Shown here piece by piece: positions 1,239 through 34,873 of a stretch of DNA of 64,000 nt (positions within the stretch are counted from its first letter, which is position 1; the number at the start of each line of letters is the position of its first letter). Below the pieces are notes generated by a model, which was not told where the DNA came from, did not search any database, and saw nothing but the letters and a program-made list of their open reading frames with translations. Source of the stretch: Selaginella tamariscina (taxonomy: Eukaryota > Streptophyta > Lycopodiopsida > Selaginellales > Selaginellaceae); the NCBI GenBank assembly GCA_003024785.1, contig PUQB01000001.1:565501-629500 (forward strand), written 5' to 3'. Made by a program: the position numbers and the translations under genes.

Positions 1239-2844
1239 ATGCTCAAGAGATGGACTAGTCATGAAAATGTTGCTTCTTATGTCAGGCAAATTCAGGCCCT
1301 TACAAACTCCAAAGATCTCTCAAATGGCAGACGCCTTCACGCATGCTTACTAGAGAACGGACACTGCAGCAGCAGATTAATCGCGAACCTCCTGATCAAC
1401 ATGTATGGGAAATGCGGAAATGTAGAAGAAGCCAAGTTGGTGTTCAATCAGATTCACAAACCAAACATATTCTCCTGGAACATACTAATAGATGCATATG
1501 CCCAAAACGGGCATACCCAAGAAGCAAGAGACGTCTTCGATAACATGCCAGTCAGAGACACAGTTTCATGCGCTACAATCCTGAAAATGTACACACAAGA
1601 GGGGCATATGAATCAAGCAAGAAACATATTTGAAGGGATGCCTGAGTGGAACTTGGTATCATGTAATATCATGGTTACTGCATATGCCCAGAACAAGGAA
1701 CTGCTACTGGCTAAGGAGCTCTTCGAGAACATGCCTGAAAAGGATGAGATTTCCTGGACTGCAATCTTGAATGCATACCATGAGAGTGGATATTTCGAAC
1801 AAGCCTTGAATACGTTTTGGAAAATGCCGATGCAGGATGCAGTCTCTTGGACAGTGATGATCACAGCATATGCCGGGAAAGGGCATATCGAAGATGCAAG
1901 GGAGATGTTCGATTCAATGCCGAAGCAAGATGAAGTTGCATGGACGGTCATTGTTCAAGCTTACGTTAGTCATGAGCAGCTGGAAGAAGCGAGGCAGCTC
2001 TTCCTAAGCATGCCCAGGAGGAGGATCATTAACTGGAACACTATGTTCAAGTGCACGCACAGAAGTCGAGGTTTGAGAAAGCACGAGAGCTGTTCAATAG
2101 AATGCCGCAGTGGGATGTCTTCTCGTGGACGATCATGGTGACTGCAAGTGCAGAGAATGGGAACACACAAGAAGCAGCTGAACTCTTTCATGCCATGCCA
2201 CAGAGAAATCTAGTGAGCTGGAACGCGATATCAAGGTTACGTGCAAAACCAGGAGTTTGCACGAGCTCATGAAACACTAGAGAGAATGTCGCTACATGAC
2301 CCCGTCTCCTGGACATCGGTCATGACTTCGTATGCCCGAACCGGGCAAATGGACAAAGCTAAGGAGGTTTTCTACTGCATGCCCCATAAGGATACTGCCG
2401 CATGGAATGCAGCTCTGGAAGCTTGCGTTTACAACGGGCGCGTGGAGGAGGCTTGGAAGATGTTCTTGTCTATGTCAGGTGTGGACCGAGACGACGTCTC
2501 ATGGAGTACAATGGTGACATGTTTTTGCCCGTAATGGACTTTACGCTCGAGCTATGGAGCTTTTCCTTGAAATGCAGCTTGAAGGCTTGAAAGCAGATGA
2601 TGTAGTCTTCATTGGGATTCTCACGGGTTGTAGCCATGCAGGACTTGTAGACGAGTGTTGTACATGGTTTGTCTCCATGGTGTACGATTACGACGTCGAG
2701 CTGAGTGTTGATCACTATGGTTGCCTTGTAGATGCTCTTGGACGAGCTGGAAAGCATGAAGAAGCACAAGAGTTGATCTCTTATATGCCGGTGTATCCAG
2801 ATGAGGTCGCTTGCACTGCAGTTATGAACTTGCAAACATATTAG
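1239..2844 (+). pseudogene. PPR protein gene, three frame breaks, C-terminus lost
   Basis: This encodes a pentatricopeptide-repeat protein, a family that binds organelle RNA one base per repeat. Tandem 31-residue S-type motifs follow a short leader beginning MLKRWTSHENV (for example FSWNILIDAYAQNGH, then MPEKDEISWTAIL). The reading frame changes near 2047-2053 (one base missing), near 2231-2240 (one base extra) and near 2522-2526 (one T too many in a T run); homology continues across each break. After the HYGCLVDALGRAGK stretch the protein stops at VMNLQTY, where the E1 motif should begin. The last 23 bases overlap the 3' end of the opposite-strand PPR gene. Three breaks plus the lost C-terminus favour a decayed copy, though some breaks may be sequencing indels, as in other genes here. 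Confidence 0.75.
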
Positions 2845-4715
2845 AGAGCGTTACATAGGAGCCAGCATTGACAGAGTTCAGCTGCAATGCTCGATCTGCA
2901 ACCCGCTCACCACGAGCAGTATCATTATGAGTGTTGCAAGAGGCTAGAAGAGTGGTCCAGCAGACAAGGTCCGGCAAGAACGGCATAGAATGCAGTAGCT
3001 CCTCGGCCTCGGCAAGCTTTCCTGCACGTCCAAGGATATCAATCATGCAGCAGTAGTGCTCGATAAGAGGCAGCAATCCCTGTTCCCTCATTTGCAACAT
3101 GTAAGACCTTGCATCCTCCAGAGATCCCATATGACAACTTCCAACCAGAACTGCTACGTAATATCATCAAGCTCTTCACCAGCGAGTTGCATGTTCCTAG
3201 CCATCTCAATTGCTTCAAGTCCGTGACTATTGAAGGCATATCCACTCACCATTGTACTCCACGAAACCGAGTTTCTCGTCGGCATCTTGTCAAACCAATC
3301 TCTTGCCTTGACGAGGTCACCGTTTTGTACACACATTGCAACCATGGCATTCCAAGCTACAGTGTCCTGTGTAGGCATCTGGATAAACAAGTTACTGGCT
3401 TCTTCCACATTCCCGTTCCTTGCATATGCTGAAAACATTGCAGTCCATGCCACCACGTCTGGATTATGCATTCTATCAAACGTGCTCCTTGCTTCGTCTA
3501 GTCTCCCGTTTTCTGCATAAGCTGTTATCATGGAAGCCCAAGACATGGGATCATCAACTGGCATTCTCTCAAATAGCCTCCTTGCTTCTTCCAAATTCCC
3601 GTTCTGGGCATGTGCGTGTATAATTGAATGCCAGGAAACACTCTGTTTATCTGGAAGGTCATCAAACACGGCTCTACATTCACTCATATGCCCAGTCTGG
3701 GCATATGCAGTAAGCAAAGCAGTCCATGAGACGAGGTTCCTTTGCGGCATCCTATTAAACACTCTCCGTGCTTGTCTTGTATGTCCAGCTTGAGCATATC
3801 CCACCATCATTGCTGTCCATGTAGCTACATTTCTCACACGAACCTCTCCAAACAAGACCCGTGCCTCTCGGATATGTCCCACTTGAGCATATCCAGCTAC
3901 AAGAGCATTGCAACACATAGTTTCTCTACAAGGCATTCTTCTGAGCACCGCCTCGGCCTCAGCAATCCTGCCATTCTGAGCATAACCAACTAGAATGGCA
4001 CTCCAGGAGACAACATTCCGACAAGGTGTTATATCGAACAAGCTTCTAGCTTCTTCCACGTATCCATACTGCGAGTAGACAGTAACCATTGTAGTGTATG
4101 AAACCACATCTTGCTCCGGCATCCTGTCAAAGATAGAACGAGCTTCATCAAACCTCTCTTGAGAGCATACACCTGCATCATTGAGTTCCACGAGAATATA
4201 TCTCTTCTAGCAGCAGAAACAAACATAGATCGTGCTTCATCCAGATGCCCCTTCTGGGCATATGCAGAGAGAAAAGCGTTCCAGGTGACTATGTCCATAC
4301 TTGGGATCCGATCACACAGCCTCTTTGCTTCTGCTATAGAACCAGATCGTGCATGAGCAACTATCAGACTTGTCCAGGAAATCAATCCCCGCTCGGGGAT
4401 GTTCCAGAAGAAAGCGTCTGCAGAATGTAAATCCCCATTCCGGGCAAATGTTTCTAGCATGAGATTGTATGAGTACCTGTTCTTGTCGTGAATCCCATCA
4501 AATACCATCTTGGCCTCGACCACATTCCCGCATTTCCCAAACATTTCTACCACAAGGTTTCCCAGATAGCTGTTCTTGGAGTGCTCGCTAGCGTTCAATC
4601 GACTATAAACACTCCTAGCCGCAAGAATGTCTCGGGAATTCCCGCATTCTCTTATCAACTCTGCAATGCATTGGATTGTCTCTTCCGATCTTTGAATGGT
4701 CTTCCTCAAAGCCAT
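2822..4715 (-). CDS. PPR protein (S-motif array, E1 end), two frame breaks
   Basis: PPR protein read leftwards from MALRKTIQRSEETIQ. It has about a dozen 31-residue motifs of the type MPQRNLVSWTALLTAYAQTGH, then the HYCCMIDILGRAGK block and an E1 motif ending SYVTLSNMFASS. Frame breaks lie near 4160-4172 (after MMQVYA) and near 3143-3150 (after GEELDDI). Either could be one missing base, and the protein continues cleanly on both sides. No long organelle-targeting leader is visible before the repeats. The start codon is only 17 bases from the start of the divergent PPR gene to the right, and the 3' end overlaps the PPR gene to the left by 23 bases. It probably acts in mitochondrial or plastid RNA processing; the target is unknown. 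Confidence 0.75.
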
Positions 4716-4732
4716 CCATTCTCTTGTTGCGG

Positions 4733-6472
4733 ATGAGATTTCCTCCTGCCCACATTGTCTCTCACAAGCTTACAGAGTACAGAAGAGTAAATCTCTATGC
4801 AGAACATCTACAACTATGCGCAGAAGCTAAGGACCTCGAAACAGGGAAGAGAATTCATTCCTCCATTCTTGCAGAAAGCCTCTTGAGGCAAAGATATCTC
4901 GCCAATCTGCTTGTGGATCTCTACGGTAAGTGCGGCTGTCCAGAAGAAGCAGAATTAGTGTTTCAACAGATTGCAAATCCGAATGTATTCTCTTGGAGTA
5001 TTCTTCTCACAGCCTATGCCCAGAATGGGCATATGGAATGGGGGAAGTGGGTGTTCAACAAAATGCCTAAGCACAACTTGGTGTCCGCCAGTGCCGCTCT
5101 TGCTGTGTATGCGCAGCTCGGACATGTACAGGAAGCGAAGGCACTCTTTCAGCTCGATGCAGGAGAAGAACGCAGTCTCGTGGAACTCCATGATTCAAGC
5201 ATTTGCCCAAGCTGGGCAAATCCGAAACGCGAAAGATCTCTTTGATGAGATGCGTGGAGAGATGTGATCTCTTGGTCCACCATGATGTCGAGCTTCTCTC
5301 GGAATGGAGACTTAGATGGAGCTAGAGCTTGCTTTCAGAACATGCCCCAGTTATGTATGGTGTCTTGCTCGGCTATGCTCTCCGCATATGCCGAGCACGG
5401 ACATCTACACGAGGCAGAGGCGATCTTCCGAAGCATTCCACGCCCAAGCTTAGTTACCTGCAATGCCATGCTGCAGGCCTTTGTTGAGAATGGGAGCCTG
5501 AATTCTGCCAGTAGAATGTTTCATGAGATGTTACATCGGGATGAAATCTCATGGACTTCTATGCTGTCCGGTTACACACAGAATGGTGATCTGCAGCTTG
5601 CAGAAGATGTACTCGACAAGATGCCTCAGCATTGCTCAGCGGCTTTGAATATCAAGCTCCAGGTACTTGCATATTGTGGGGATCTCTCTCGACTAGAATC
5701 TACATTTAGAGAGCTTCCAGAGCGGCATGTGTATGCATGGAACACGGTGATTGCTGCATATGCCCATCACCGGCAAATGCACAAGTCCATGGAGTTCTTT
5801 AACTCGGCTCCTAAGCGAGAAGTAGTCTCGTGGACAGCGATTATAACAGGATACGGAGAAAACAGAGATTCAAAGGCGGCAGAGAAAGTCTTCACTCTCA
5901 TGCCCCAGTGGAGCACAGTGACATGGAATGCCATGGTTACTGCATATGCCCGAGGTGGTCATGTGGATGTGGCTTGGAGTTTGTTCTATAGAGTGCCTGA
6001 GCAACATCTTGCTCCCTGGAACGTCATGCTTCTGTCATGCTCTCAAGCCGGTCATGCAGATGTCGGGCTTGAGCTTTTCCATTCCATGGTTATGGAGGGA
6101 CTCAAACCGGACGAGCTTACGTTCATAGTAATCATCTCCGGGTTCAACCATGCTGGCCAGCTTGAGCAAGCCCGGCAGTGTTTCATGTCCATACACATGG
6201 ACTTCGACTTGCTCCCGGTTGTCGAGCACTACTGCTGCATTGTCGGTGTTCTCGGTCGGGCAGGTCGGATGAGCGATGCACAAGATCTAACTGCCAACAT
6301 GCCGTTTGAGCCGAACGATGTTACCTGGAACACACTGCTCGGGTGTTCCACCGTACACAGTGACTTCCAGTCCGCTGCCTTTGCCAAAGAACACGCCTTC
6401 CAGTTGTACGGCAGGTGCTCTGCTTCTTACGTGTTGTTATCGAATGTGTATACACAGGAATCCCATGTATAA
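4733..6472 (+). CDS. PPR protein (S-motif array, E1 end), two compensating frame breaks
   Basis: PPR protein starting MRFPPAHIVSHKL; an in-frame ATG at 4676 would overlap the divergent neighbour, so the inner ATG is preferred. Tandem 31-residue motifs follow (PNVFSWSILLTAYAQNGH and others), then VEHYCCIVGVLGRAGR and a terminal E1 motif ending SYVLLSNVYTQESHV. One extra base lies near 5148-5153 (after AKALF) and one is missing near 5258-5266 (around DEMRGRDVISW), so the frame is restored and the last 402 codons are uninterrupted. There is no DYW deaminase domain. The next gene starts 49 bases downstream on the same strand. Confidence 0.78.
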
Positions 6473-6521
6473 CAAAGCCCAGGTATTTAACTAACACATT
6501 ATTACTAATATTGTAGATAAG

Positions 6522-8508
6522 ATGTCGATTGCGGTACTTCAGACAAGCACATCACTACTGAGGAGCAATTGTTGCAGCAGTAGAAGAGCATATGGATTAC
6601 AGGTTCGGATTCATATAAACTCCTGGATAAACTCTTGGAGGCCTATCTGCCCGAATCGTGGAGCTCAGGTATATGCATTGGGTTCATATCAAGCACGCAT
6701 ACAGCTCGAAACACAAAAGTCTGAAGAGGAAGAAGAAGAGGATTCGGACGTGGATGGGGAGTACAAGGAAGAGGAAGAACAGGAAGAAGAGGACGATAAT
6801 GATGCAGTGGGAAGGGACTACGAGCAAGAGGAAGAGCGTCTTAGCGGTGGTTCAGTAGACTTTACGTCTGCTCAGGAACTGCTCGAGTCCATCGCTGTGC
6901 TTAAAGATGAACAGACTGTTCGAATCCAGAAAATGGTCAAGGGTTGGCTCAGGACAAGAGATTTCAGTGTTCCCAAGTGTGAGTTTGTCTACATCGTGAG
7001 AAGATTAAGGAAGCGTAAACGTTGTCGACATGCTCTCCAGGTGTGTGCGTGCGTGTGTGTGAGAGAAGAGAGAAGTTTGAAGACACAGAGAGAGAGAGAG
7101 AGAAGTTTGAAGACACAGAGAGAGAGAGAGAAGTTTGAAGACACAGAGAGAGAGAGAGAGAAGTTTCTTATACCATGAACACACACACACGAGTGTCGTA
7201 TTAATCTACGTGCACACAGATTGCAGATTGGATGGCATTAACTACACCAAAACCATACTCACTGAACACAAGAGACAAAATCTTTAGAATTGACTTGGCT
7301 TCTCGTTGTCGAGCATTGAAAAAAGCAGAACGGATCTTCCAGCTACTGCAGCCGGAAGACAGGTCCGAGGTTGCTTACAATGCGCTACTTCTCGGCTATG
7401 CAAAGAACAGGAGGCTGGCAAGTGCCCAGACACACTTCAACCAGCTAAAGGACTCGTGTAAGTTATCCTCACCTTACAGCTTCAATCTCATGGCTACTTT
7501 GTACCGTGAGCTTGGAATGCACGACAAGGTGCTGCTGTGTGCAGCATGAAGCACAAGAGTTGGATGTCAAGCTTGACATATGCTTCTGTAACAATCTGTT
7601 GGATGCCAAGTATAGAGTCCAAGGCCTCGGAGAAGCCGAGAGATTCTACAGCTCTATGAGTGACATGTTGGAGTCAAGCAGGAAGCCTTTCTTCACTTAC
7701 GTGATAATGGCCCGGTGTTATACTTCGGCTGGACGCAAGGAAGAGGCCAATCGCATGTTAGAGATGATCGAGCAAGGAATGGAAACAGGGAAGATCATAA
7801 AGCAGCGTAGGAGATATAACATGCTCATCTCCATGTATTCCCTCCTTGGGAACACTCTCGCAATGGAGAGAGTCTGGGATAAACTGAGACAGACGAAAAC
7901 ACTTATCTCCGAGGACTACTGCTGTATGATCAAGTCCTGGGGGAAGGTCGGACAGCTTGAAAAGGCCGAGATGCTCTTCAAGGAGGCAGACAGCTGAGAA
8001 GCAGCTCAAGTACTCGGACATTTTCAACTCCATGATGTTTGTATACTCGCTCATGGGGATGAAGGAGGAGGCAGAGGCTCTTGCTCTGCGAATGGAGTAC
8101 GATATGGGAATTCAGCTGGATACATGGTGTTACCACCATCTCATTCTGCTATATGCTAGAGAGAAAGACTTAGACAAGATGTTATCTACCTTGCAAGCAG
8201 TTCAAGTTGTTTCGAAGAGGCGCAGACGCTTCTATCCTCTGCCAGCGACCTTGTGGATAGCAATGGATACCTTAGCGGAATTCGGAGACGTGGAGACTGC
8301 AGGGCACGTCCTGAGGAAATGGAAGAGCTCAGGTTACCGCATCAATGCAAGCATTTATAATAGATTACTCAAGGCGCACCTGGTTGCTGGTAAGCCTGCG
8401 GTTGGATTCGTAGAACAGATGCTTGCAGATGGCATCAGACCCAACGGACAAACTGAAGAACTCTTCAACGAACTCAAGGTGAAGCTTGCCAGTTGCAACA
8501 GTAACTAA
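6522..8508 (+). CDS. P-class PPR protein, At1g02150/At1g60770-like
   Basis: This gene differs from its PLS/S-motif neighbours. A Ser/Arg-rich leader that could target an organelle (MSIAVLQTSTSLLRSNCCSS) is followed by a long acidic Glu/Asp tract (roughly residues 65-110). Then comes the family block ALQIADWMA...YSLNTRDKIFRIDL with degenerate P-type PPR helices (YNMLISMYSLLGN, DYCCMIKSWGKVGQLEKAE). One intron runs 7041-7219 (CAG/GTGTGT...CACAG/ATTGCA). In exon 2 one base is extra near 7538-7546 and one near 7988-7996; removing both gives about 601 residues. The stop lies 7 bases from the stop of the convergent PPR gene. The family is mostly mitochondrial; no specific RNA target can be read from the sequence. 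Confidence 0.75.
7071..7167 (+). repeat. Intronic minisatellite (about 28-30 bp x 3)
   Basis: Three near-identical units begin AGAAGTTTGAAGACACAG and are followed by AG runs of variable length. They lie wholly in the intron of the P-class PPR gene, and the length differences are in the (AG)n part. Confidence 0.85.
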
Positions 8509-8515
8509 GTTGTTG

Positions 8516-10534
8516 TTATGGTTTCATCATACACATGTTAGACAGCAAAACATATGGAGTACAATCACTGTGTACGTTCATCACCTGTTCACAAGCACGA
8601 GATGCAACCTCTGTGTAGCCATGATCTCTGAAGGAAGCCAGTAAAGTCTTCCAAACAACATCATCCCCGTCACAAGGTAAGTTTGTTATAAACTCTTCAG
8701 CATTCTCAAGCTGACCCGCTCGAGTGAGCAAGTCTACCATGCATGCAAAATGATCGATACCCTGCTCGATCCCGTAATCCTGCTTCATTCTCTGTAGATA
8801 ACTAACACCACGATCGAATTCTCCAGCTTGACTACAAGCTGAGAGCACGCAGATAAAAACAATCCTGTTTACGTCAAAACCTTCGAGCATCATCTCATGG
8901 AACAGTTCAAAGACCATCCAACTGCTCCCGTCATGAGCATACAAGGACATCATTGCTGCGTATGAGACACTGTTCGGGTTCTTCATCTCGTCGAAGACCT
9001 TCCTGGCAGTTTGCATTCTCCCACATCTCCCGTACATGATCACAAGCGAGCATCCGAGAGGGCCCTCCAGCTCCATACAAAGGCTAACTGCACAAGTGTG
9101 AAGAGCTTCGCCTTGGAAGAGATCGAACACTCCTGCACATGCATCGAGCAGGCTAACCAAAGTTACCGTGTCAGGCTTGACGCCTTCCATCAACATTCTT
9201 TGTATAAGTCCCAGTGCACGTTGTCCGTATCCATTCTGTGCATATGCAGCAAGCATTGCATTCCAACAAGCAAGGTTAGGATCTTGAATCTCCTCGAACA
9301 CAAGACGAGCATCCTCCACACGGCCATTCTGTGAGTAACCCGTCAGCATCACATTCCATGATACAATATCTTTGACAGGGATGGCGTGAAACATTTCCTT
9401 GGCCTCGTCCAGGTGCCCGTTTTGAGAAAGGATGTTCATCATAGTGTTATACGTAACAATGTTTCTGCATGGGATCCTCCTGAAGACTCTCTTTGCCACT
9501 TCTACACATCCTTGTTGGGAATACACAGCAATCAAGGTTGTCCAGGAGATTACATCTCGAGAACGGAGCTTATCGAACACGGACTTTGCACGGTTGACAT
9601 TTCCAAACTTCGCAAACATGTTCATGCACACATTCATCACCTCGGTATCGTCCCTGAAAGCGCTCTCTCTTATGATCTCGTGTACCATCTTCCCATCTTC
9701 CACAGTGAGGCTCGAACAAGCATCCAGAGCACTCACAAGGCTCACTTTGGTACCCTGCACACCGTTTAAGTCCATTCTCTGGAAGAGCTCGAACGCCTTT
9801 CTTCCATGGTTGTTCAGTGCGTACGATGAAATCATCACATTCCATGAAATCACAGTTCTCTCCGGCATTTGCTCGAACACCATTCTGGCCAAATGCAGAT
9901 GCCCATTCTGGGCATATGTTGTGATTATACAAGTCCATGAGACAACGCTCTTCTCTGGGAGGGAATCGAACAACTCTCTTGCTTTGTAGATGTTCCCGTC
10001 TTGTCCATATCCCCATATCATTGTGTTCCACATGACAACCGTCGTGGATGGTGCCTTACTAAAGAGCTCCTCCGCCTCATGCATATGCCCATTCTGGGCA
10101 TATACAGCAGCCATAGCACCCCACGAGACTGCAGTCTTCTCAGGCCATGTTTCATATGTGTTCTTTGAGTCCTGCACGAGTCCAAGTTGCCCAAGAAGAT
10201 TAAGATAAGAATTACAAGTGACAACTGACCATAGCGGCATGAGCTCGAACATGCTCCTGGCTTGCTCCAGATGCCCCGTTTCGGCATATGCTGTAACCAT
10301 TATGTTCCAGGATATGTCATTACGTCTATAGATGTTCTCAAATGCGATTCGAGCCGGTTCAATCTCTCCCAAGCAGCGGTACATCTGAATCAGTAGATTC
10401 CCAATGAATGTGTGGGAATGATATCCCGCAGATACAAGCTCCAAATGCAATGTTTTGCTGCGTGTGTAATCCTTGGATTTGGCGCATTCCCGAAGCAGCG
10501 AAGCGTATTTCTGCACTATTTGTCCATTGATCAT
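8516..10534 (-). CDS. PPR protein, intact 672-residue S-motif array with E1 end
   Basis: One uninterrupted reading frame from MINGQIVQKYASLLRECAKS to YVLLSNMCMMKP. It contains about 15 tandem 31-35-residue PPR motifs, including a few longer P/L-like units (FELFQRMDLNGVQGTKVSLVSALDACSS; the MLMEGVKPDTVTLVSLLDAC stretch). Near the C-terminus is DHFACMVDLLTRAGQ followed by an E1 motif. There is no E2/E+ or DYW domain. The clean 2-kb frame is the best control here against calling every neighbouring PPR gene dead. It is expected to bind an organelle transcript. The start is the only ATG ahead of the first repeat with no earlier in-frame candidate. Confidence 0.88.
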   Translation of the reverse strand: MINGQIVQKYASLLRECAKSKDYTRSKTLHLELVSAGYHSHTFIGNLLIQMYRCLGEIEPARIAFENIYRRNDISWNIMVTAYAETGHLEQARSMFELMPLWSVVTCNSYLNLLGQLGLVQDSKNTYETWPEKTAVSWGAMAAVYAQNGHMHEAEELFSKAPSTTVVMWNTMIWGYGQDGNIYKARELFDSLPEKSVVSWTCIITTYAQNGHLHLARMVFEQMPERTVISWNVMISSYALNNHGRKAFELFQRMDLNGVQGTKVSLVSALDACSSLTVEDGKMVHEIIRESAFRDDTEVMNVCMNMFAKFGNVNRAKSVFDKLRSRDVISWTTLIAVYSQQGCVEVAKRVFRRIPCRNIVTYNTMMNILSQNGHLDEAKEMFHAIPVKDIVSWNVMLTGYSQNGRVEDARLVFEEIQDPNLACWNAMLAAYAQNGYGQRALGLIQRMLMEGVKPDTVTLVSLLDACAGVFDLFQGEALHTCAVSLCMELEGPLGCSLVIMYGRCGRMQTARKVFDEMKNPNSVSYAAMMSLYAHDGSSWMVFELFHEMMLEGFDVNRIVFICVLSACSQAGEFDRGVSYLQRMKQDYGIEQGIDHFACMVDLLTRAGQLENAEEFITNLPCDGDDVVWKTLLASFRDHGYTEVASRACEQVMNVHSDCTPYVLLSNMCMMKP

Positions 10535-12233: not shown

Positions 12234-14609
12234 CTAATATTCACTGGCATATTCTCCAATTATATCTATGCCATGGCATAGAATGCAAGTAAGATGGTCC
12301 TTGACAGGCTTGAATCCGAAGTCGGACTGCATAGATATGAAATACTGCCTGCTCTCTGCTACACCTCTACACGCTGTTAGTACCTCGGTGAATGTGACCT
12401 CGTCGGGGGAACAACCCTCCAAGTTCATCAAATGGTTTGTTTCCAGCGCTTCACAGGGACGCCCAGATCGCGCATATGCAGAAATCATGGCGTTCCAAGT
12501 CACTACCATCTTAACAGGGATTGCCTCAAACATTTTCCGAGCATCCTGGATATGCCCATATTGGGCATATGCAGTTATCATCGAAGTCCATAACACAGAA
12601 TCCCACTGCGGACACAGATCAAAGAGCTCTCTCGCTCTATGCATATGCCCATCTTGGGCATATGCAGAGATCATGACTGTCCAGGAGAGCACACTCTGCT
12701 CCTGCATTCCTCCAAGCAAGCCCAGTACATGACCGAACCCGCTGAACACCGTGCCGTACACTGATGAGTTGTGGTTGGGCATCTTGTAGAGAATCAAGGA
12801 CTTGTTCAAGCCGGTTATTCTGGCAGCAAGCAGATATCAATGCTACCCATGAGACCTCGTTTCTGAACTTCATCCTGGCGAAAGTCTTCTCAGCACGTGT
12901 GAGATCTCCAGTTTGGCCATACAAAGAGATCATATAAGTGCATAGAACAACGTCGTGTTCAGGTGTTCTGTGATACATAACAGTTGCATCTCTCACAACC
13001 GGTTCTTACCGTAAGCAACAACAATGGAGTTCCACGACTGCAGGTCCCAACTCGGCATTTTGTCAAATGCCAGTCTCGCTCCTTCTACTTCGTGGTTTCC
13101 CCATATGCATGAACAAGTGAAGTCCAGGATGCCACACATCTTGGGGAATGATCGAAGATACACTTCGCTTCAACAAGCCATCCGTTTTCTCCATAGGCAG
13201 AAACCAAGGAAGCAGATGAATGGGCATCTCTGTTCGGCATGCACTCCCAGAGTTCTTGTGCTCTCCTGATATCCCCACTTTGGGCATATGCAGAAAGGAC
13301 CTCGTTCCAGGCAGTAACATCGTATTGTGGGAGTTTCTCGAGCACAAGAGCTGCTTGTTGGATATGCTCAGTCCGAGTATATGACTGAAGAAGTGCATGC
13401 CAGGAAGCCATGTCTCGTTGTTTCATTCTGGTGTGGAAGATGTCTCTTGCGAGTTCCTGTGAAAGACTAATACACGAAAATGCAATTGTGTTCCAGGAGA
13501 GTGTGTCCAAGTCGGGTGCTTCATCGACTAGCTCCATAGCTGCTTGCAGCATGCCACTGTCCACGTAGCCAAGTATGATGGAGCTCCACGAAATCGTTGT
13601 CCATTCTGGCATTAACATGAACACCGTTCTTGCAGTTGCTAGATGTCCGTTACTCGCGTACCCACGAACCAGCACGTTCCATGCTACAACGTTTCGTTCT
13701 GGCATCGTGTCAAACATGTTCAAGGCAAGCTCAAGACCAGAGTTTTGCGCATAAGCTGTGGTGATGGTGGTCCACGAGATTATGTCTCTCTGTGGCATTC
13801 TTTCGAACAAAGACTTCATCTCTTCAGGTTTTCCGTAAGCTTTTAGCATGGCATTCCAGGAGACCTCGTTCCTTTTCGGCATCTTATTGAACAAGTCCTT
13901 CGCGCCCTCCAAATGCCCGTTCTCGGCATTTGCATGGATCATCACGTTCCAAGCAGGTTGTGTCTTCTCAGGCATTCTCTCGAACGTGTCTAAAGCCAGA
14001 TCCATATGAAAGCTCTGGGTGAACATAGTAACCATAGCAGTCCATGTAAATGCATCGGTCATGGGCATTCTGTCGAAAACTACACACGAATCATATACAT
14101 ACCCGGCCCGGGCATATGCTTTTAGAAGCGAGTTCCAAGAGACTTCATTTCTGTCTGGCATTCGATCGAACATCTCTAGTGACTGAGACACTTGTCCCCA
14201 CTGCCCGTATGCAGAAACCATAGAGTTCCATATAATTACACTTCTCTCCGGCATGTCTTCAAATAAATCCCTTGCTTCCTGCAGATGCCCGTTCATGGCA
14301 TATGCTTGAGCCATGACGGATGAGGACTGCACTGTCGGACAAGCGATGGTCTCGAACACAGCACGAGCGTCTCCAACACTCCCGCATTTCCCAAACATCT
14401 CTACCATCAGGTGACAGAGGTATCTGTTGCCTGACTGTCCAAATCTGCTCCTGGATATGTATTTGTGCACAGTCCTGGCATCGGACAGGATTCTGGCTTT
14501 GGTGCAGCTCCTTATGATCTCCGAGCTCTTGCACGATTTCGGTGTTGGTACATTCTTCTCTCTTCAGAGCGTTCTTCACTAGTTTCTTCCATTGTACATT
14601 CACCATCAA
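12234..14609 (-). pseudogene. PPR protein pseudogene, four frame breaks
   Basis: It reads leftwards from MMVNVQWKKLVKNALKREE. The main uninterrupted block (13085-14470) holds about thirteen 31-residue S motifs (ISWTTITTAYAQNSG, VAWNVLVRGYASNGH). Frame breaks lie near 14505-14525 (before EIIRSCTKARILSD), 13088-13095, 12990-12996 and 12808-12825. The 3' part still shows PPR motifs (VLWTSMITAYAQYGH), but the normal HYCCMVDLLGRAGR and E1 blocks are replaced by a degenerate end (DHLTCILCHGIDIIGEYASEY). The missing C-terminal structure argues for real decay, unlike neighbours with only one or two breaks. Confidence 0.75.
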
Positions 14610-17977: not shown

Positions 17978-18517
17978 TGTTAGAGGCCAAAAATATAGCA
18001 TGTAGGAACTGCATACATAGGACTTTCCTACGGTGGAGAATAACTTGTAGGAAAGTAGTAGTAGGAAATATCCTGTGTACAGGAAAATCCTACAGCAGTA
18101 GGAAAAATCCTACAGGGTAGGAAGGATCCTACGGTTGCAGGAAGCAGACAGTTATGACGGTTGGAGGAGGACAGGATTCGGTTAGGGCAAGCAAGGGCAA
18201 GAAGAGAGAGAGACTATGAAGGCTATGAAGGCTATGGAGAGCAATGCATGAGAGAGAGAGTATCTTTGGGAGAGAAGTAAGTCTCCACACTTGCTATCTC
18301 TTTGTATTCATATAGTAATGCAAGTGCATATTTATGGGTATTGTGAATGCTTATACATGGCAATGGCCAAAGCAAAATCCTATCCTTGACCTTAGAGACG
18401 AAATAAGTATATATCTAGAGCTCTCTATTGGACGAAATCCCTACACTTTAACTTGCAAAGCTTTTCCTGCGCTGTGAACAGTGTTTTCTGCACACAGGAA
18501 AGTTTTGTATGTTAACA
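17978..18517 (+). repeat. 5' LTR of the inner element
   Basis: 540 bp, TGTTAGAGGCC...GTTAACA. It carries clustered variants of TAGGAAA(A)TCCTAC in both orientations and the promoter-like TCTTTGTATTCATATAG. Just downstream, TGGCGACCACGGAGGGAT (18520-18537) is the likely primer-binding site because it begins TGG; I do not assign the tRNA. Confidence 0.93.
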
Positions 18518-22131: not shown

Positions 22132-22175
22132 GATAGGTGCAATGAGGACATTGCAAGATTCAAGGTGGGGAATAG

Positions 22176-22713
22176 TGTTAGAGGCCAAAAATATAGCATG
22201 TAGGAACTGCATACATAGGACTTTCCTACAGTGGAGAAACTTGTAGGAAAGTAGTAGTAGGAAATATCCTGTGTACAGGAAAAATCCTACAGCAGTAGGA
22301 AAAATCCTACAGGGTAGGAAGGATCCTACGGTTGCAGGAAGCAGACAGTTATGACGGTTGGAGGAGGACAGGATTCAGTTAGGGCAAGCAAGGGCAAGAA
22401 GAGAGAGAGACTATGAAGGCTATGAAGGCTATGGAGAGCAATGCATGAGAGAGAGAGTATCTTTGGGAGAGAAGTAAGTCTCACACTTGCTATCTCTTTG
22501 TATTCATATAGTAATGCAAGTGCATATTTATGGGGTATTGTGAATGCTTATACATGGCAATGGCCAAAGCAAAATCCTATCCTTGACCTTAGAGACGAAA
22601 TAAGTATATATCTAGAGCTCTCTATTGGACAAAATCCCTACCTTAAACTTACAAAGCTTTTCCTGCGCTGTGAATAGTATTTTCTGCACACAGGAAAGTT
22701 TTGTATGTTAACA
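22176..22713 (+). repeat. 3' LTR of the inner element
   Basis: 538 bp, starting TGTTAGAGGCC and ending TATGTTAACA. It matches the 5' LTR except for scattered single changes such as GGTGGAGAATAAC versus AGTGGAGAAAC. Confidence 0.93.
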
Positions 22714-25620: not shown

Positions 25621-25631
25621 CTTCGCAGCTC

Positions 25632-26413: not shown

Positions 26414-26665
26414 GGATGCTTGAGAGAGAGCATATGCAGTAGCCTTGGAGGATGCATTAGTAGCTGCATGCGCTGCATTGGTGAACCTTGCAGATCTATG
26501 ACCACTTAACGCAAAGTGGCCAGCTCATGAAGCAACATTTAATGCTCGCGTTGAAATTGCTCAATGATTCGTGAAAGAAAGGAATAAAGGAAAACAAGGG
26601 AGGAAAGCTAAGGAAAAAAAAAGTAACAGGAAATCAAGGAGCTATGAAAGCAGTTACTATCAAAC

Positions 26666-27208: not shown

Positions 27209-27213
27209 TCTAG

Positions 27214-27984
27214 TTACTACTAAGAGAGTTTTTGTAGGGCCTCGACATGAGCATGGCCATACTAGTGATGCCATGTCTACAACGAGCCCATCTCCGTCAC
27301 CGCCAAAGCACTGTCCAGATAGAGCAACTTCGCCTTGAGCCGATAGAGGTTGCCGCTCCTGGAGCTTGTCATCAGCACCCGGCCATCACTTTCTCGGATA
27401 AGCTCACAGGTACCTCGCTTGAAAACCACAGTGTATCCTACATCTGTGATCTTACTGATTGAGAGTAGGGTTTAGGAGATGGCAGGAACATAGTAGATGT
27501 GTGGAGCTCCCGCCTTTCTCCTCCCGGCATCTCCACTTCTAGCGTTCCAACAGCAAGTATGTTTAGCATAGCGTCGTTCCCCACAACAATCGTGTGGCCT
27601 TCTGTCAAGCGTTAGAGATGAATGAAGGCCTCCCGCTACGGTGACATATGGAGAGTGGCCCCGGAGTCCAACCATATCGTGTGATTCAGAGCTGAAACAG
27701 GCCATCAACAACCGGGCTAGTTTCTGGGAGTCGCGTTTCTTAGCCCGACAGTATCGTTCGATGTGGCCAAGCTTGCCATAGTACGAGCACTTCGGTCTTT
27801 CCTTCCCTTCCCAGGTCTTGGTAGGAGCCTTCCCCTTTTCTTGGTGATCTCCATTGCGGCGGCATTCCTCCCGCCAGTTCTCGAATCTCAACCTTTTCAA
27901 GCGGTTCTTGTTGGAGGATTCAGCTTCATTAGTGTCAATCTCCTCCTCCTTTGTCGACTTCTTGTTTCCCAAAACAAAGCGCAC
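27214..27984 (-). pseudogene. Copia Gag knuckle, protease and GAG-pre-integrase
   Basis: The minus strand starts near MRFVLGNKKSTKEEE. The CCHC-like knuckle CSYYGKLGHIERYC has Tyr for the second Cys. A protease motif WLDSGATLHM lies in another frame (about 27641-27673), and a decayed GAG-pre-integrase trace (YGHAHVEALQKLS) lies just before the Gypsy insertion. It continues at 17204 on the far side. Confidence 0.82.
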
Positions 27985-28753
27985 TGAGGGTTTGTAGTGT
28001 TAGGCCCGCCATGTTTGTGAGAGTGGCGTAGAGCATGGTGTGAGCCGGAGCATGGATGTGCTCGAGGGCAGACAGAAGGACCACAATTTAGTCATGATTT
28101 GTCGACTTCGAGGCAGGTGCCATGGCTTCCAGCTAGGCCACCAGAGCTCTCATCCGTCCCATGAGGGTGGAACAAGCTTCGCCATGGTAGAATCGCAAGC
28201 CGAAGAAATGTGTTTTATACTCCACGCTAGTGAAGATCACATGAGCTTGGTTGTCGAGCATTTTCTAAAGGAGATGCCAATTCTTTGCCGCCGTTTTCTT
28301 CAAATCAAGGTGGTGCTAGAACAGTTTCCCCAAGCCTATTCCCATCGAGGATAGTGCTTTGTCATTCCGAAGGTTCCAGTTTTCCACCTTCTCGACCAAG
28401 AGTTTTAGAAGTGGCTGCGACCATGGCAACGCTTTAGTACCAAGGGCGATTTTTATGCAGCCATTTCTTTTTCCTAAGTGAAAAAATCTCTACCATTATA
28501 CTATGGGATATTGAGCGTCCGAGTATTCATGTTTTTGAGGAAAGAGAATTTTATTCAAAGGCTTCGTTCACAAGCATCACAACAGGGTGTGATGCAAACA
28601 CAAATGGATTTCATTCTTGACTTCTCTTTTCACTGCGCTTCAAGCTCGCCTCTTCTCGAATCGTGCAATCCTCTGAGTGATCTCCCAGCGGCTTGCTACA
28701 GCAACCTTCTGCTATTGTCTATGTTTCCAATCCTCTTGCTCATGCTCCCAAAA

Positions 28754-28765
28754 GCTCAGATACCA
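28754..28765 (-). other. Copia primer-binding site
   Basis: The minus strand reads TGGTATCTGAGC directly after the 5' LTR, one base different from the usual initiator tRNA-Met binding site TGGTATCAGAGC. Confidence 0.85.
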
Positions 28766-28934
28766 TCTAGGAGAGATGAACGTGAGAGAACTCTAGAAAA
28801 TGTGCAATGAAAATAATTTGAAGAGTACATGATTCCACTAAAGGTGGACACGACTCTATGCCTATGTGGCAATAGTGACATGGCGTAGCGTGATTGGACT
28901 CCAGAAGTGTAAGCCTGAATCTAGACCTCCAACA
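28766..28934 (-). repeat. Copia 5' LTR
   Basis: About 169 bp; partner of 14948-15126, with about 80-85% identity by eye. The flank ATGTC at 28935-28939 is the target duplication. Confidence 0.88.
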
Positions 28935-28939
28935 ATGTC

Positions 28940-31900
28940 ATGAATAGGTTATAACATCTACACTTGAGATAGTCAAAGGCATTGAGCACATTATAATCAT
29001 TGCCTTTCTCACCTTTCATTGTCTATGCTAGTAAATTTTCTCTTTTTTTGTAATTATTTTTATTATGTTACCTTAATAGTAATTATTTTATGTAAAATTT
29101 CTTTAATGTTATTATAATATAAGGTTTGACAATTGTTCACTTAGTTAACATGGCACTTCATGAAAGAGCAATGTAGAGCCATGAAAAAATATTTATAACC
29201 AATTATTAATTAACAAAAGATCAAGTACAAAAAATATTAAAGACAAAAAAGGAATAAATCAAGGCAATGGAGCAATTTATAATATTGAGTGTTAGTGGGT
29301 ATTTGACATTATAAATAATACTATGACAAATCATAATATTGTATTAATTTTTTATTTAAATTAGAAAATTTTAAGAATTAAATAAGAAAAAACAAATTTA
29401 TCTTTTTAAAGACAATTGTATATAAATTATGAAAAGTAAAAAGTTAATAACTATTAAAGATGTTAAAGATTGGGATTTACACGATAACAATACATTGTTT
29501 CACTTAAATAAAGTTATGTTAAGGTTAATTTAAATTTAATCTTTTTGATCTTACATTATAATTTCAGACATTGACAAGCAAATAGTGAATCAAACAAAAT
29601 TTGAATATATTGAGATATACACTACCAAATTAAAGTTAATAATATTAAGATATACACTTTCTCAATTATTTGATTCAATGCTTTAGATAATTTAGAACAA
29701 TGTCATTATGTTAAAAGAGAAAAAATGAAATATATTAATTAAAGTATTATAATCTTTAGGCACAAGTGTGTTGTGCAATAGGCCTCATATAAATCTTTTT
29801 AGTCCTTAAGGAATAAGGGTGAATGCCACCAATAATTTAAGGCATGTGACACTAATAGTTCAAGGGTGTGTGTAATTGATGCAAATAACCAAGTCGCTAT
29901 CAATGTCACTACAAGAATAGGTTTGTAGGGAGACTAAGAACATCAACATGAGCAAAAGCCTCAATAAAATACAATGTTGATGGCTACTTGAGTCAAGAGC
30001 TTTGGACAAGATGTCAATAAACTTAGGGGTGTTAATTCACATGACACCTCTAAGGGATTACTCAACACTTAAAGGATAACAAATATTTATTAGTGACAAT
30101 AGAAGCTTGGCAATTAATAATGTGGGCACAGTGGTGGTGCAACTTTGCTTGGGAGCTCTTCAAGAGATTTCATTGTGTTGAAAAGCCATCAAACTTTACT
30201 TTTAATATAAGCAACAATATATAATGGTGGACTTTGATTTATAAGGAAGAGATTTGAATATTGATGAAGAAAGTCGTGAGGTAGTGGCAAAAGGTGAATA
30301 CTATGCTTACACAAGTTTAATGTTGTTTTGATTGTGAGAGATCAAGATCAAGTAATGATGGCCACTAAAGAGAATACATTATTACTATGGCATAAGTATT
30401 TTGAACATTTTCATGTAGCAGTAGTGAAATAGGCTCTTTAACTTACTCATCAAAAAGTGAGACCATTGGTTCTAACAAGATCTTCACTTCCATTATATAA
30501 AGTTTGTGTTTTCGGTTGACATCATTTATCTTTCAGTAATCATAGTCTAACTCTATTATAATTTATAAATTTTAATCTATGCAAAGCAATGCACATACAT
30601 AGCTTTTGTTAATGTTTTTACTTTGTCACATTTGTGGACAGCTTCTCTTATTATATTGTAAATGATGCGGTGCAAATAAGAATTTCTTAAGGAGTTCACA
30701 AATTTTTATGCAAGTGAAGACAGTCAACAACATTTTATAATTACATATTATTTTTAATTGCTAAATGAATGTTAATTGTACATTAATGAATAATGCAAGG
30801 TGTATGTTAATATGCCTATGTTCTTTTAGGTTGAAGTAATAAGCATAATTATTTATTTTTATAACCGTTTTTCTTCTTCAAGCTTAAAAGGTTTTCAATC
30901 ATTTAAACTTTGAAAATGTTACTCTTTGATGTTTATGAATTTTTAATTGCATTTGTTTATGTTTATATAATCGATGAGTTATGTAATAAACTTGAGCCTA
31001 AAAGTGTAAAGGCCATCATGGTTAGTTATAATTTACAATAGAAAGGTTATATAAATTATTAAACATCAACTTATTATGAGCAAAGACATGAAATTTAATG
31101 AGAAATCCTTATACAAATGTTTACAACATAACAAGTCGCATTCAAGAACAACTCACTAATGTGCTCTTGGAAAAGAAGTATGCATTTTTCCCATGTTTAA
31201 CTTCTTCTTCACCCACACTACAAGTGTTAAAAGCACTAGCACTAACAAAATCGTAAAAAAATAATCTTTCTATTGACTCTATTTAATAATGAATTGTGTT
31301 TAAGTGAATTATATAAAGTCTTGAATTTAAAAGAGCCACTAATTAAGGTGACAACAATAAAGAAAATAATCTTTTTAATAACTTTATTTAACCGTTTAAG
31401 TGAGCTATGTAAAGTCTTGAGTTTGAAGAAGCCAACAATTAAGGTGTAACAATAATAAGAGAATTTATTAAAAACTGCAATTTCACATATAACAGAGGCT
31501 GAATCTTATTAACAAGTAATAACAAAATTATTTAAAATCATTATGAAAACCAAGTGTCTTAAGAATTATCTATTGGAGTAGTAGGTGGTGAATTGTTAAA
31601 CTATCTAAGCAGTTCAACCATCGGATCTGGTTAATTCATTGTATGCACAAATTCTAACAAAATATACGTTGAAAATTAAAAATTGTATGGTTGAGATTGT
31701 TTCAGTAACAAACACGTAACCTACTAATATACATATATGATCTAAAATTAAAATATTAAACATATATTTCACTAATGTACCTTAAAAATTCAATTATATT
31801 AAAGTTTAAGGTTAAAAAAATAATGAGTAATAAACTTTTGTTTAAAATAACTAACTACTATAATGTTGTTATTTATGTACAAAGTTAAAATTGTAATAAC

Positions 31901-32924
31901 ATTCGCTTGTTAAAAAGGATAAACATTGTCATTTGCTCATGTTTTTTGAAATTCAAGTGAAATTATAAATTTTTTCACACATCTCAACTTAACACACATG
32001 CACTTAATTCTGTAAATGAGCAAAAAGACAATGTAAAGTCTCTTATATAAACATGTAATTGAATGCTTTTTTTGTTTAGTAATTTATAGTTACGAAAAGA
32101 ATATTAAAGTGTTATGATGAATCATGTGAGGCATTGTAAGTTATGTTATTTATTTTTCCTTAATAATGGATTGGTTAATTGAAGTAGTAAATAACAAGTT
32201 GTTGTGACGTTATCAAAATATAATGTAGTTACAATAGTATTTCAAAAAATTATTTAATTATACTTATTTAAAGATCTTTAACTTTAATTAAGAAAATATT
32301 TAATTCTTCATTATAACAATAAGGTAATAATTATACTATTAAATAATAATAAAGAACATAAAATTACATGCTATTGGAATAGAGAGAAGTACTAACAATA
32401 TATTTTTTATTTCAATGTCAATTAAGAAGAGAAGGACATTTATTGGTATTATATTATTTTAAATATAATTATTTTTTTATATGAGGCTAGTATGAAAGTG
32501 AGTGGCTTGCACAATTCAGATATAACCATTATTTTATTTATTTGAAAGATTCAAAAATATTAATTGTATAGGTGAACCGTAACTTTTGTTCGCCTAAATG
32601 TAGAATTACAAAAGTAATGTATAATTAGTATTTTTTAAAATATATGTAATGAAAAAAATTTATTCAAAATAAACAAGAGACATTTAATATTTTTATAAAA
32701 TTACATAATAATGAAATTCTTTTCATGTAGTAAAATAAATAATTTTTATTCATTTTTAATTTAAAATAAAAGATTTATTATGTGTATAACATATATTTAT
32801 CATGATACCTTTATATATGAAATTAATATTTAATTTTTATTAAATAATATTAATATTTTTTTAATTAATAAAATATTGTTTTTCGGGGGAACGGGTACTA
32901 GACAAAGTTTGAACAACTACGATC
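28940..32924. other. AT-rich desert
   Basis: About 4 kb of AT-rich sequence with no credible gene. A faint transposon trace is listed separately at 30360-30545. The rest shows A/T runs and no recognised feature. Confidence 0.7.
30360..30545 (+). pseudogene. Decayed Copia GAG-pre-integrase trace
   Basis: Plus-strand fragments read TKENTLLLWHKYFEHFHVAV and LPLYKVCVFG.HHLSF, matching in order the Copia pattern LWH..FGH..../C..C..GK.HR.PF, with stops between. No LTR or duplication was found around it. Confidence 0.4.
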
Positions 32925-32978
32925 GATGCAATATGAGGTGTAATTATACACGATGCAATATGAGGTGTAATTATACAC
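32925..32978 (+). repeat. 27-bp tandem duplicate upstream of a PPR gene
   Basis: Two exact copies of a 27-base unit starting GATGCAATATGAGGTGTAAT lie about 75 bases before the PPR start codon, at the border between desert and gene island. Confidence 0.9.
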
Positions 32979-33052
32979 GATCCGTCAATTGTAATTATCA
33001 TTCCATTTGAATGCTGTACTCCAAAGTGAAGAGAGAATGTTAGCAGCTGCGT

Positions 33053-34873
33053 GTGATGATCCACAAAGAGACAGTGGACAGCTTTGCCGAGTTAATCCAA
33101 GAATGCTCCAAAGAGCGAAACTTGTTCCAAGGCAGAGCTATACACAGTCGGGTTCGGCGGGCCGGTCTTCAATGCAGCACGTACCTATGCAACCTGCTCA
33201 TCTCAATGTACAGCAGCTGTGGCAGCCTGGGAGATGCATGCTCCGTCTTTCAGACAATGGAGAAAACCAACACCTTCTCATGGCATCTCATATCTCAGGC
33301 GTACGCCAAGAGCGGGAGACTGGAAGACACAAAGCGGACATTCGACTCCATGCCCAGAAGAAATGTTGTCTCCTGGAACATGCTGACTGCAGCCTTTGCC
33401 GGTAAGGGGCATTTTGTGAAGGCCAAGTCTTTTCTCGATAGAATGCCCGGTTGGGACGTCGTTTCATGGACGACGATGGTGCAGATATACTCTGAATCCG
33501 GACAAGCTCATCGGGCAAAGGATGCGTTTGATAACATGCAGGAGAGGAACATTATCGCTTGGAACTGCCTGATTACTGCGTATTCCCATTCCGGTGAGCT
33601 TGCCAAGTGCAGAGAGGTGCTGGAAAGGATGCCAGTTCTCGACGTTGTTGCATCGACTGCAATGGTGACTGCTTACATTCATAACCGGCATTTCGAAGAG
33701 GCTTCTTTCATGTTCGAGCAGATGGTTTACAGGAACGAATTCTCCTGGAACGCGATGATTACTGCATATGCCCACTCTCGGGATTTGTCAAGAGCGAGGA
33801 TGTTCCTGGAGAGAATGCCATTCCACGACGTTGTATCATGGACAGCCACGTTACAGGCGTATGCCGATGCTGGAGATATGGAGCAGGCAAAAAATGTGTT
33901 CGACTCGATGACGGAGCGCAACACTGTCTCGTGGAACTCAATGCTGTTCGCATATGCCCAATACGGGCATATTGCTGAAGCCAAGGAAGTCTTCGAGAGA
34001 ATGCCCAGCCAAAACCTGACTTCGTTGAACTGCATGCTGACGGCTTCGGTTGAGAACGGGCTCCTGGACGAAGCCGAGGTGTTCTTCAAGGAGATGCCGG
34101 AACGAGATATTGTCTCGTGTAATGTAATGCTGCAAGGACTTGTAGCAAGTAAACTTAACAGCAAAGCACGGAGTCTTTTCGACGGTATGAGTGTTAGAAG
34201 TGTGGTTTCATGGACTCAGATTCTCGGTGCATACGCGCAGGAGAGGGACTTACCCGAGGCTCGCTGTGTGTTCAATGCCATGCCTCAATGGGATCCTGTG
34301 GCGTGTAACTCGATGACTTTTGCATATGCCCAAGCTGGGGATATGGTCAAGGCCCGGGAGATCTTTGATGACATGCCCGAGCGAGACATTGTCTCGTGGA
34401 ACTTGATGGTTGCGGGATATGCCCAGACTGGGCATTTTGAGGAGTCCCTTGAGTTTTTTGGAGAAATGAGAGTGAATGGGATCACTCCTGAAGAACTTAC
34501 ATACATGGGAGTTCTTACTGCATGTGGGAGAGGAGGGCTCCTCGAGAAAGGGTTGGAGTACTGGGGTTCAATGCTACAAGACGATGGGAAGTTCTCTCCT
34601 AATGTAGATCATTACTGTTGCATGGTGGATTTATTTGGACGTGCAGGACGTGTTCAGGAGGCTCAAGAACTTGTGGAGTGTATGCCTTATGAACCCACGC
34701 AGCTTGCGTGGAATACGGTGATGGCTGCAAGTAAAATGCATGGAGAGTTTGGACGAGGGAGATTGGCAGGTGTGCATGCATCTAAAATGGTACCCAGTGA
34801 TGGATCTCACTATGTGCTTCTCTCAAACATGTATAGACAGGAAGGAGGACATCTTAGAAAGGTACTAACCTGA
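33053..34873 (+). CDS. PPR protein, intact 606-residue S-motif array with E1 end
   Basis: One uninterrupted frame from MMIHKETVDSFAELIQEC. About fourteen 31-residue motifs follow (VVSWNMLTAAFAGKGH, TVSWNSMLFAYAQYGH, DIVSWNLMVAGYAQTGH). The last repeat is a longer unit (MRVNGITPEELTYMGVLTAC), then VDHYCCMVDLFGRAGR, and an E1 motif ends HYVLLSNMYRQEGGHLRKVLT. There is no E2 or DYW domain. AAG/GTACTAAC at the end could be a splice donor leading to more C-terminal sequence, but no downstream exon is recognisable before the convergent ALG10 gene, whose stop is 41 bases away. Probable role: binding one organelle transcript. Confidence 0.88.
   Translation: MMIHKETVDSFAELIQECSKERNLFQGRAIHSRVRRAGLQCSTYLCNLLISMYSSCGSLGDACSVFQTMEKTNTFSWHLISQAYAKSGRLEDTKRTFDSMPRRNVVSWNMLTAAFAGKGHFVKAKSFLDRMPGWDVVSWTTMVQIYSESGQAHRAKDAFDNMQERNIIAWNCLITAYSHSGELAKCREVLERMPVLDVVASTAMVTAYIHNRHFEEASFMFEQMVYRNEFSWNAMITAYAHSRDLSRARMFLERMPFHDVVSWTATLQAYADAGDMEQAKNVFDSMTERNTVSWNSMLFAYAQYGHIAEAKEVFERMPSQNLTSLNCMLTASVENGLLDEAEVFFKEMPERDIVSCNVMLQGLVASKLNSKARSLFDGMSVRSVVSWTQILGAYAQERDLPEARCVFNAMPQWDPVACNSMTFAYAQAGDMVKAREIFDDMPERDIVSWNLMVAGYAQTGHFEESLEFFGEMRVNGITPEELTYMGVLTACGRGGLLEKGLEYWGSMLQDDGKFSPNVDHYCCMVDLFGRAGRVQEAQELVECMPYEPTQLAWNTVMAASKMHGEFGRGRLAGVHASKMVPSDGSHYVLLSNMYRQEGGHLRKVLT

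Follow-up and report, generated by a model that had tools for sequence, protein, structure and literature searches.

In a 64,000-nucleotide stretch of the Selaginella tamariscina genome (contig PUQB01000001.1, positions 565,501 to 629,500 of the forward strand; hereafter the window), genes for pentatricopeptide repeat (PPR) proteins on both strands carry a short palindrome, or dyad, at codons 11-17 (A-Y-A-Q-x-G-H) of their 31-codon motifs. The silent sites of the dyad arms were conserved between motifs, while those of the centre and flanks were near saturation, and the arm sites were coupled to one another and to His17. It seems that the palindrome in the AYAxxGH stretch is kept in place by a factor other than the protein. 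The base pairs of the dyad (codon.base) are 10.3-19.2, those between codons 11-13 and codons 16-18, and 14.1-16.1, so that the silent third base of each arm codon lies opposite a base that is fixed or nearly fixed by the protein.

Silent sites of the dyad arms are conserved and coupled

The genome (300.7 Mb in 1,391 contigs) is rich in PPR genes, and all counts come from this one genome. The motif set consisted of the window and 40 loci (L029-L068), which are part of the PPR family. Twenty genes (L049-L068, 276 motifs) were picked by protein similarity to a window gene and blind to the palindrome; L029-L048 were found by palindrome search, and the motif that brought each locus in was removed. 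Three gapped matches were dropped, followed by 16 duplicates (520 to 504), 16 palindrome-fetching motifs (504 to 488) and 7 motifs at more than 80% identity (481). Expected values were derived from the same genes as the observed ones. Several tests share the same data and were not formally corrected for this; the main contrasts exceed by a wide margin anything that a correction would remove, which does not hold for the conditional pairing tests.

Conservation was measured as the excess of same-codon sharing between pairs of motifs with Ala13, Gly16 and His17 (A13G16H17, n = 118). The excess was large in the arms (+.45, +.29 and +.28 at codons 11, 12 and 13; +.42 and +.35 at codons 16 and 17), small at the arm edges (+.14 at codon 10 and +.10 at codon 18) and close to zero in the centre (+.03 at codon 14 and -.02 at codon 15). 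The other 22 codons of the 31-codon repeat had a mean of +.025, and the highest value among them, +.15 at codon 5, belongs to a mostly Trp position with few silent comparisons left. The pattern was replicated in the window (21 motifs), L049-L068 (64) and L029-L048 (33), with respective excesses of.39,.36 and.35 in the arms, -.09,.02 and -.01 in the loop, and.05,.03 and.02 outside. A gene bootstrap of the 20 similarity-chosen genes gave.31 to.40 for the arms, -.03 to.07 for the loop and.00 to.05 outside.

Silent choices were also coupled, with a mean z of 1.62 for stem-stem codon pairs (21 pairs), -0.16 for stem-loop pairs (14) and 0.16 for near pairs outside (64). This linkage passed over codons 14 and 15, and a few single outside pairs reached a z of 2.5-3. 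GCC and GGG were both present in 76 of the 118 A13G16H17 motifs. P-class motifs of the same genome had no footprint (291 motifs); their Gly16 still favored GGG (81/177 vs 114/394 elsewhere), which suggests that part of the Gly16 preference is older or general. One P-class array, L010 (C551:160456-170455), is made of internally duplicated blocks that resemble each other at about 70-72% along as much as 2 kb.

Codon choice, chance expectation and neighboring residues

An earlier note, made from the window alone, claimed that GCC and GGG are the codons used at the Ala and Gly of the dyad and that the palindrome is not forced by the protein. Codon counts in 83 of the 88 window motifs agreed with the first claim: Ala13 was GCC in 30/46 compared to 43/227 at other motif positions, and Gly16 was GGG in 38/68 compared to 12/59. 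In the 20 similarity-chosen genes, the corresponding counts were 82/155 vs 127/703 for GCC and 144/232 vs 47/156 for GGG. Sequence context, taken as the next base or the next two bases, was rejected as the source. At other positions, Ala before C was GCC in 17/133 and Gly before C was GGG in 7/43; Ala before CA was GCC in 97/160 at position 13 vs 11/40 elsewhere, and Gly before CA was GGG in 140/184 at position 16 vs 5/23 elsewhere.

The AYAQxGH word itself fixes two pairs (13.1-17.1 and 14.1-16.1), so the site is partly complementary from the outset, and the palindrome could arise as a by-product of protein sequence plus normal codon use. However, synonymous shuffles on local codon use, which the earlier note had itself named as the refuting test, did not reproduce it. 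Arms of at least 8 bp were found in 21 of 468 motifs (from the 481) compared to 0.5 in codon-use shuffles and 0.4 in context-aware shuffles, a shortfall by a factor of about 40, and context leaves GCC and GGG unexplained. Ordinary codon usage is thus refuted as the cause, and we consider a by-product of this kind very improbable. When codons were permuted within column and residue, 6.8 +/- 2.3 such motifs were expected against the 21 observed, indicating that the silent choices also go together inside a motif.

Context-corrected codon bias (488 motifs) was 0.63 bits at Ala13, 0.50 at Ala11, 0.44 at Gly16 and 0.39 at His17, compared to 0.01 bits at Ala21 (407 motifs) and 0.00 bits at Gln14. Ala11 was GCA in 201/292 vs 92 expected, with Ala11 itself left out of the expectation. 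The strongest position of all by this measure was Ser4, where TCA and TCG were far above their use elsewhere.

The preferences of the arms depended on His17. Ala13 was GCC in 86/118 motifs with His17 and 50/117 without (p = 3e-6), and Gly16 was GGG in 98/118 and 62/117, respectively (p = 8e-7). Conversely, among A13G16 motifs, His17 was present in 66/89 of those with the silent core compared to 52/146 of those without. In Ser13 motifs, the silent preferences of the arms were near zero save at codons 10 and 11; nine Ser13-Gly16-His17 motifs had GGG in 5 and CAT in 7, and from these His17 seems to matter most.

Dyads and PPR genes of the window, and the word genome-wide

All seven inverted repeats listed in the earlier note are present in the window, mostly with the arms and loops it gave. 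Two of them depart from the note in detail: at 33952-33972 the 8-bp arms enclose a 5-base loop, and the repeat placed at 12641-12665 with 11-bp arms extends to 12-bp arms at 12640-12666. Two further dyads lie at 5201-5221, where one pair departs from the usual word on both its sides, and at 13910-13932. The spacing of about 93 bases held for 12550-12570 and 12640-12666, whose centres are 93 bases apart. As RNA, 12642-12672 has a predicted fold of -14.1 kcal/mol. The dyads are as follows.

1494..1514, plus strand: dyad at AYAQNGH, arms 7 bp, loop 5
2328..2348, plus strand: dyad variant at SYARTGQ, arms 6 bp, loop 3
3685..3707, minus strand: dyad at YAQTGHM, arms 11 bp, 1-base centre
4245..4265, minus strand: dyad at AYAQKGH, arms 6 bp, loop 5
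5015..5033, plus strand: dyad at YAQNGH, arms 8 bp, loop 3
5201..5221, plus strand: variant dyad ATTTGCCCA/TGGGCAAAT at FAQAGQ, arms 9 bp, loop 3
9899..9919, minus strand: dyad at TYAQNGH, arms 7 bp, loop 3
10083..10103, minus strand: dyad at YAQNGHM, arms 9 bp, loop 3
12550..12570, minus strand: dyad at YAQYGHI, arms 9 bp, loop 3
12640..12666, minus strand: dyad at AYAQDGHM, arms 12 bp, loop 3
13910..13932, minus strand: variant dyad CAAATGCC/GGCATTTG at NAENGHL, arms 8 bp, loop 7
33952..33972, plus strand: dyad at YAQYGHI, arms 8 bp, loop 5
34419..34435, plus strand: dyad at YAQTGH, arms 8 bp, 1-base centre

A purpose-built model of the 31-position PPR motif had 88 matches in the window, with neighbors often 93 bases apart. 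Apart from one weak match at 56.8 kb, all of them fell within frames of either strand, at about 1.2-14.5 kb and 33.1-34.9 kb. The PPR open frames are listed below.

1239..2141, plus strand: PPR open frame
3154..4191, minus strand: PPR open frame
5264..6472, plus strand: PPR open frame
8516..10534, minus strand: PPR open frame, 672 amino acids
12234..12809, minus strand: PPR open frame
13085..14470, minus strand: PPR open frame
33053..34873, plus strand: PPR open frame with 31-residue motifs, 606 amino acids

Six window proteins were scanned with protein family models. Four matched both PF01535 and PF13041 above cut-off, and the other two, which are non-PPR frames, matched neither. No DYW domain was found among the six, and E_motif had one match below cut-off (23 vs 27.3 bits) over the repeats of one protein, P0001. 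The window genes have the tandem 31-residue motifs of PLS/SS-type PPR genes. PPR motifs at 13053-13135, 13788-13869 and 2490-2576 were seen in the DNA without an ungapped match at the protein level, so some of the window's PPR genes appear to be decayed or split or to carry indels.

In the non-PPR part of the window, too, short perfect inverted repeats exceeded a first-order model (5 vs 1.6 and 7 vs 2.6; at least 3 GC per arm), and several inverted repeats at about 46700-48200 are built from telomeric words like CCTAA/TTAGG. A tandem duplication of about 2.2 kb (58422-60593 and 60950-63081) has 89.7% identity. A direct repeat of about 540 bp (17978-18517 and 22176-22713) has 97.6% identity, with its copies 4.2 kb apart, as in a long terminal repeat retrotransposon.

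Genome-wide, the 23-mer CATATGCCCAGNCTGGGCATATG was found with up to 2 mismatches in 330 places, and its reversed control in none. Twenty of the listed places with 0-1 mismatches were read with 1.5 kb each, and 18 had a PPR motif at the site. Among the 20, L035 is a frameshifted PPR copy, and L047 had no PPR motif by the protein model within 1.5 kb. At L047 (positions 601-900; C504:1697794-1699294), the palindrome word has perfect 11-bp arms in AT-rich DNA and could be a relic, a captured snippet or something else. In a check for mobile or bacterial origin, the 21-mer had 3 exact matches in a collection of prokaryote genomes, two of which came from related bacteria, compared to about 0.2 expected at equal base frequencies. 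With P0001 as query, no relative turned up among viral contigs.

Proposed maintenance of the dyad and its implications

We give an even chance to maintenance of the dyad in AYAxxGH coding DNA at the nucleic-acid level. The likeliest form of such maintenance, offered tentatively and with its mechanism unproven, is a stem-loop in the mRNA; the rest of our confidence covers upkeep of the dyad in the DNA itself. In either form, AYAxxGH in the 31-residue repeat would carry a second layer of information, with the coding DNA held as the dyad GCATATGCC-(7 bases)-GGCAT(ATGC) by a nucleic-acid constraint acting independently in each repeat. The constraint would act on self-pairing, most probably through a short stem-loop formed by the PPR mRNA where it encodes the inter-helix turn, with one every 93 bases wherever adjacent repeats both carry the dyad. 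In each repeat, such a stem-loop could delay the ribosome or affect how stable the mRNA is.

Predicted folding fits the suggestion, also made in the earlier note, that the palindrome forms regular hairpins in the mRNA. Codons 10-19 of 70 AxxGH motifs folded at -10.4 kcal/mol compared to -4.9 kcal/mol in shuffles (z = -15), so that the predicted stem is about 5.5 kcal/mol more stable than composition alone provides. The z for these codons was -6.3 in motifs without His17 and 1.5 in other motifs (full-length motifs only: 70, 73 and the first 90), and four other 10-codon windows ranged from -3.7, at codons 15-24 of AxxGH, to 1.2. Hairpins with arms of at least 7 bp centred at the site numbered 50 in PLS frames vs 9.3 expected, whereas hairpins elsewhere in these frames were not in excess; both counts included the palindrome-chosen loci and four near-identical pairs.

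Several results weigh against a selected stem-loop. Compensatory double changes were not in excess, with 197 Watson-Crick pairs among doubly changed cells vs 192.9 expected, although some lack of covariation is to be expected where the protein already fixes the bases that face the silent sites. The two loop-closing pairs were depleted (157 vs 182 and 70 vs 88.6 expected). Conditional tests gave mixed signals: with an intact core (100 motifs), some excess of pairing was seen at 12.1-18.1 (p =.005), 10.2-19.3 (p =.008) and 10.1-20.1 (p =.033) and none at the seven other pairs tested, and when the core was absent an excess was seen at 12.3-17.2 (p =.027) and 11.1-19.1 (p =.033). At 4 of 5 stem sites, identity of the rest of the word predicted the silent state better than pairing did, and pairing then added almost nothing at those four. 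Watson-Crick pairing alone was a better predictor than pairing with G-U allowed at three stem sites and about equal at two; a test of G-U tolerance gave a combined p of.04, with the same GCG excess also present outside dyads. The dependence on residue 17 was uneven as well. In the window alone, GGG was no lower without His17 (13/17) than with it (15/21). Asp17, which breaks a central pair, kept GCC and GGG in 12/22 motifs, whereas Arg17, with a codon starting with C in at least 7 of 13, kept them in 1/13, the reverse of what a pairing rule would give. His17 was CAT in 14/16 motifs where Phe12 breaks its pair, compared to 114/130 with Tyr12. Codon bias was also found outside the arms (0.68 bits at Ser4, 0.39 at Lys27 and Ser23, 0.33 at Leu2 and 0.19 at Pro29). 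Finally, PPR genes are commonly regarded as having low expression, so selection at individual silent sites is a demanding requirement.

The advantage of word identity over pairing at 4 of 5 stem sites, the performance of Watson-Crick pairing alone, and the lack of excess compensatory changes would all fit a sequence-specific site, in which a dimeric DNA-binding protein, an RNA-binding protein or a small RNA reads the word and the symmetry reflects the reader. However, ATGCCC-N5-GGGCAT was not seen in use outside PPR genes, with no occurrence in the non-PPR part of the window and none exact, and 1 with one mismatch, in 200 kb of L009-L028. The constant spacing of the dyad is no evidence for a reader, because the reading frame fixes it. 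We know of no candidate reader of the word and consider a binding site rather unlikely.

Another possibility is neutral self-correction, in which the nascent strand folds back at a quasi-palindrome and copies one arm from the other, erasing silent mutations; no function would be needed, and the protein would fix the template bases. The mechanism is documented in yeast: in one study (PMC8604942), inverted repeats with arms of at least 7 bp were tested for multinucleotide changes by template switching, with arm homogenisation, and the test was significant in 8/42 genes at 7 bp, 11/16 at 8 bp and 10/10 at 9-11 bp. A role for template switching in maintaining short RNA stems has been proposed, though called circumstantial (PMC8794818). 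The systems in these two sources resemble the PPR dyads as short coding inverted repeats with arms made complementary (PMC8604942, PMC8794818). Template switching would account for conservation of the arms only, for the dependence on an intact core and for the absence of clumping by gene. The perfect 11-bp arms at L047, where the protein model found no PPR motif within 1.5 kb, also fit it, and arms more complementary than in shuffles are what a quasi-palindrome hotspot should have.

Template switching as described in those sources is, however, generic over sites, and the PPR excess was limited to one site of the repeat. Other hairpins in the same PLS frames were not enriched: arms of at least 6 bp numbered 68 vs 65.6 expected from synonymous shuffles, while those of at least 7 bp were fewer than in shuffles (6 vs 15.9), with 1 vs 3.8 at 8 bp or more. 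Inversion of the spacer was hardly seen among 117 dyads, a count that kept the 16 palindrome-fetching motifs. The spacer AGAAT occurred 17 times and its inverse ATTCT not once; the only inverse pairs were AGACT/AGTCT (3/3), AGAAC/GTTCT (15/1) and AACAC/GTGTT (1/1). With Val13, Gly16 was GGG in 15/31, and GGA, the codon expected from copying, was found in 8/31. Generic perfection of hairpins by template switching is therefore disfavored. P-class frames did have an off-site hairpin excess (14 vs 7.2 for arms of at least 7 bp and 6 vs 1.6 for at least 8 bp), which favors a generic process there; this carries little weight because three loci (L012-L014) are near-copies of each other. Overall, we consider self-correction unlikely, if worth keeping in view.

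The dyads could also be a founder effect, in which the repeats descend from one ancestral palindromic word and their silent states were inherited or spread by short gene conversion. Arg17 was CGT, a single substitution away from His17's CAT, in 16/47 vs 3.3 expected, and so retains a trace of its codon ancestry. Other traces of this kind are the lean of Asn15 to the non-pairing AAC (101/172 vs 74.3 expected) and the codon preferences at Ser4, Thr6 and some others. A13G16 motifs with the silent core more often had H17, A11 and Y12 and also, at uncorrected p =.02 to.04, W5, P29 and R31, as a lineage would. Against descent, mean nucleotide identity between motifs was 0.49, the silent sites of A21, N6, V2 and A7 were at background, and the two central codons within the supposed tract were neither conserved nor linked. 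Intact GCC and GGG sites showed no clumping within genes (permutation p = 0.52). Neither recent ancestry nor gene conversion sits well with unclumped sites and unlinked centre codons, and we consider a founder effect quite unlikely. Gene conversion and recent array amplification are disfavored on the same two grounds. The earlier note had also proposed that the palindrome could seed recombination, inversion or gene conversion between PPR genes. This would predict homogenised tracts that include the centre; the codons between the arms were not homogenised and the sites were unclumped, leaving the proposal unsupported.

Among known systems, the mitochondrial coding palindromes of nematomorphs (PMC6649704) share with the PPR dyads inverted repeats in protein-coding DNA, arms kept complementary and a proposed role for template switching. 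Nematomorph arms reach 284 bp in mitochondrial genes, and paired change keeping the repeat perfect is reported there (PMC6649704). In contrast, the PPR dyads have arms of 6-12 bp, repeat the same word in many nuclear repeats and show no overall excess of paired changes. RNA structures that overlap coding regions are like the PPR dyads in having a locally conserved silent block and a stable predicted stem. Synonymous constraint of that class is usually demonstrated from covariation within a single gene compared between species; the PPR case differs in extending across repeats of one family in one genome, without covariation. PLS/SS-type PPR genes of land plants have the same 31-residue motifs and an AYAQNGH-like turn in a large family. 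In the PPR literature, no nucleotide-level footprint at the AYAQNGH site was found at the level of titles and abstract openings. Likewise, among the titles listed, none dealt with PPR genes in connection with palindromes, hairpins, silent conservation or small RNAs in Selaginella.

Returning to maintenance at the nucleic-acid level, a whole protein-repeat family may bear a recurring cis-acting element in its silent sites. Between the two helices, most AYAxxGH repeats of many nuclear PPR genes would then encode a stem-loop or dyad under selection, and His17 may itself be favored no less at the nucleic-acid level than at the protein level. We regard this as a serious possibility that falls somewhat short of even. 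Gene-family evolution is gauged against silent sites as a neutral yardstick, and if this block is held, the yardstick is off in exactly the stretch by which PPR motifs are most easily recognised. If template switching is the cause, mutation would maintain a palindrome at many dispersed coding sites (330 places) without selection. If the mRNA stem-loop is true, there would be a regularly spaced RNA element for each protein repeat, tying repeat number to the behavior of the mRNA.

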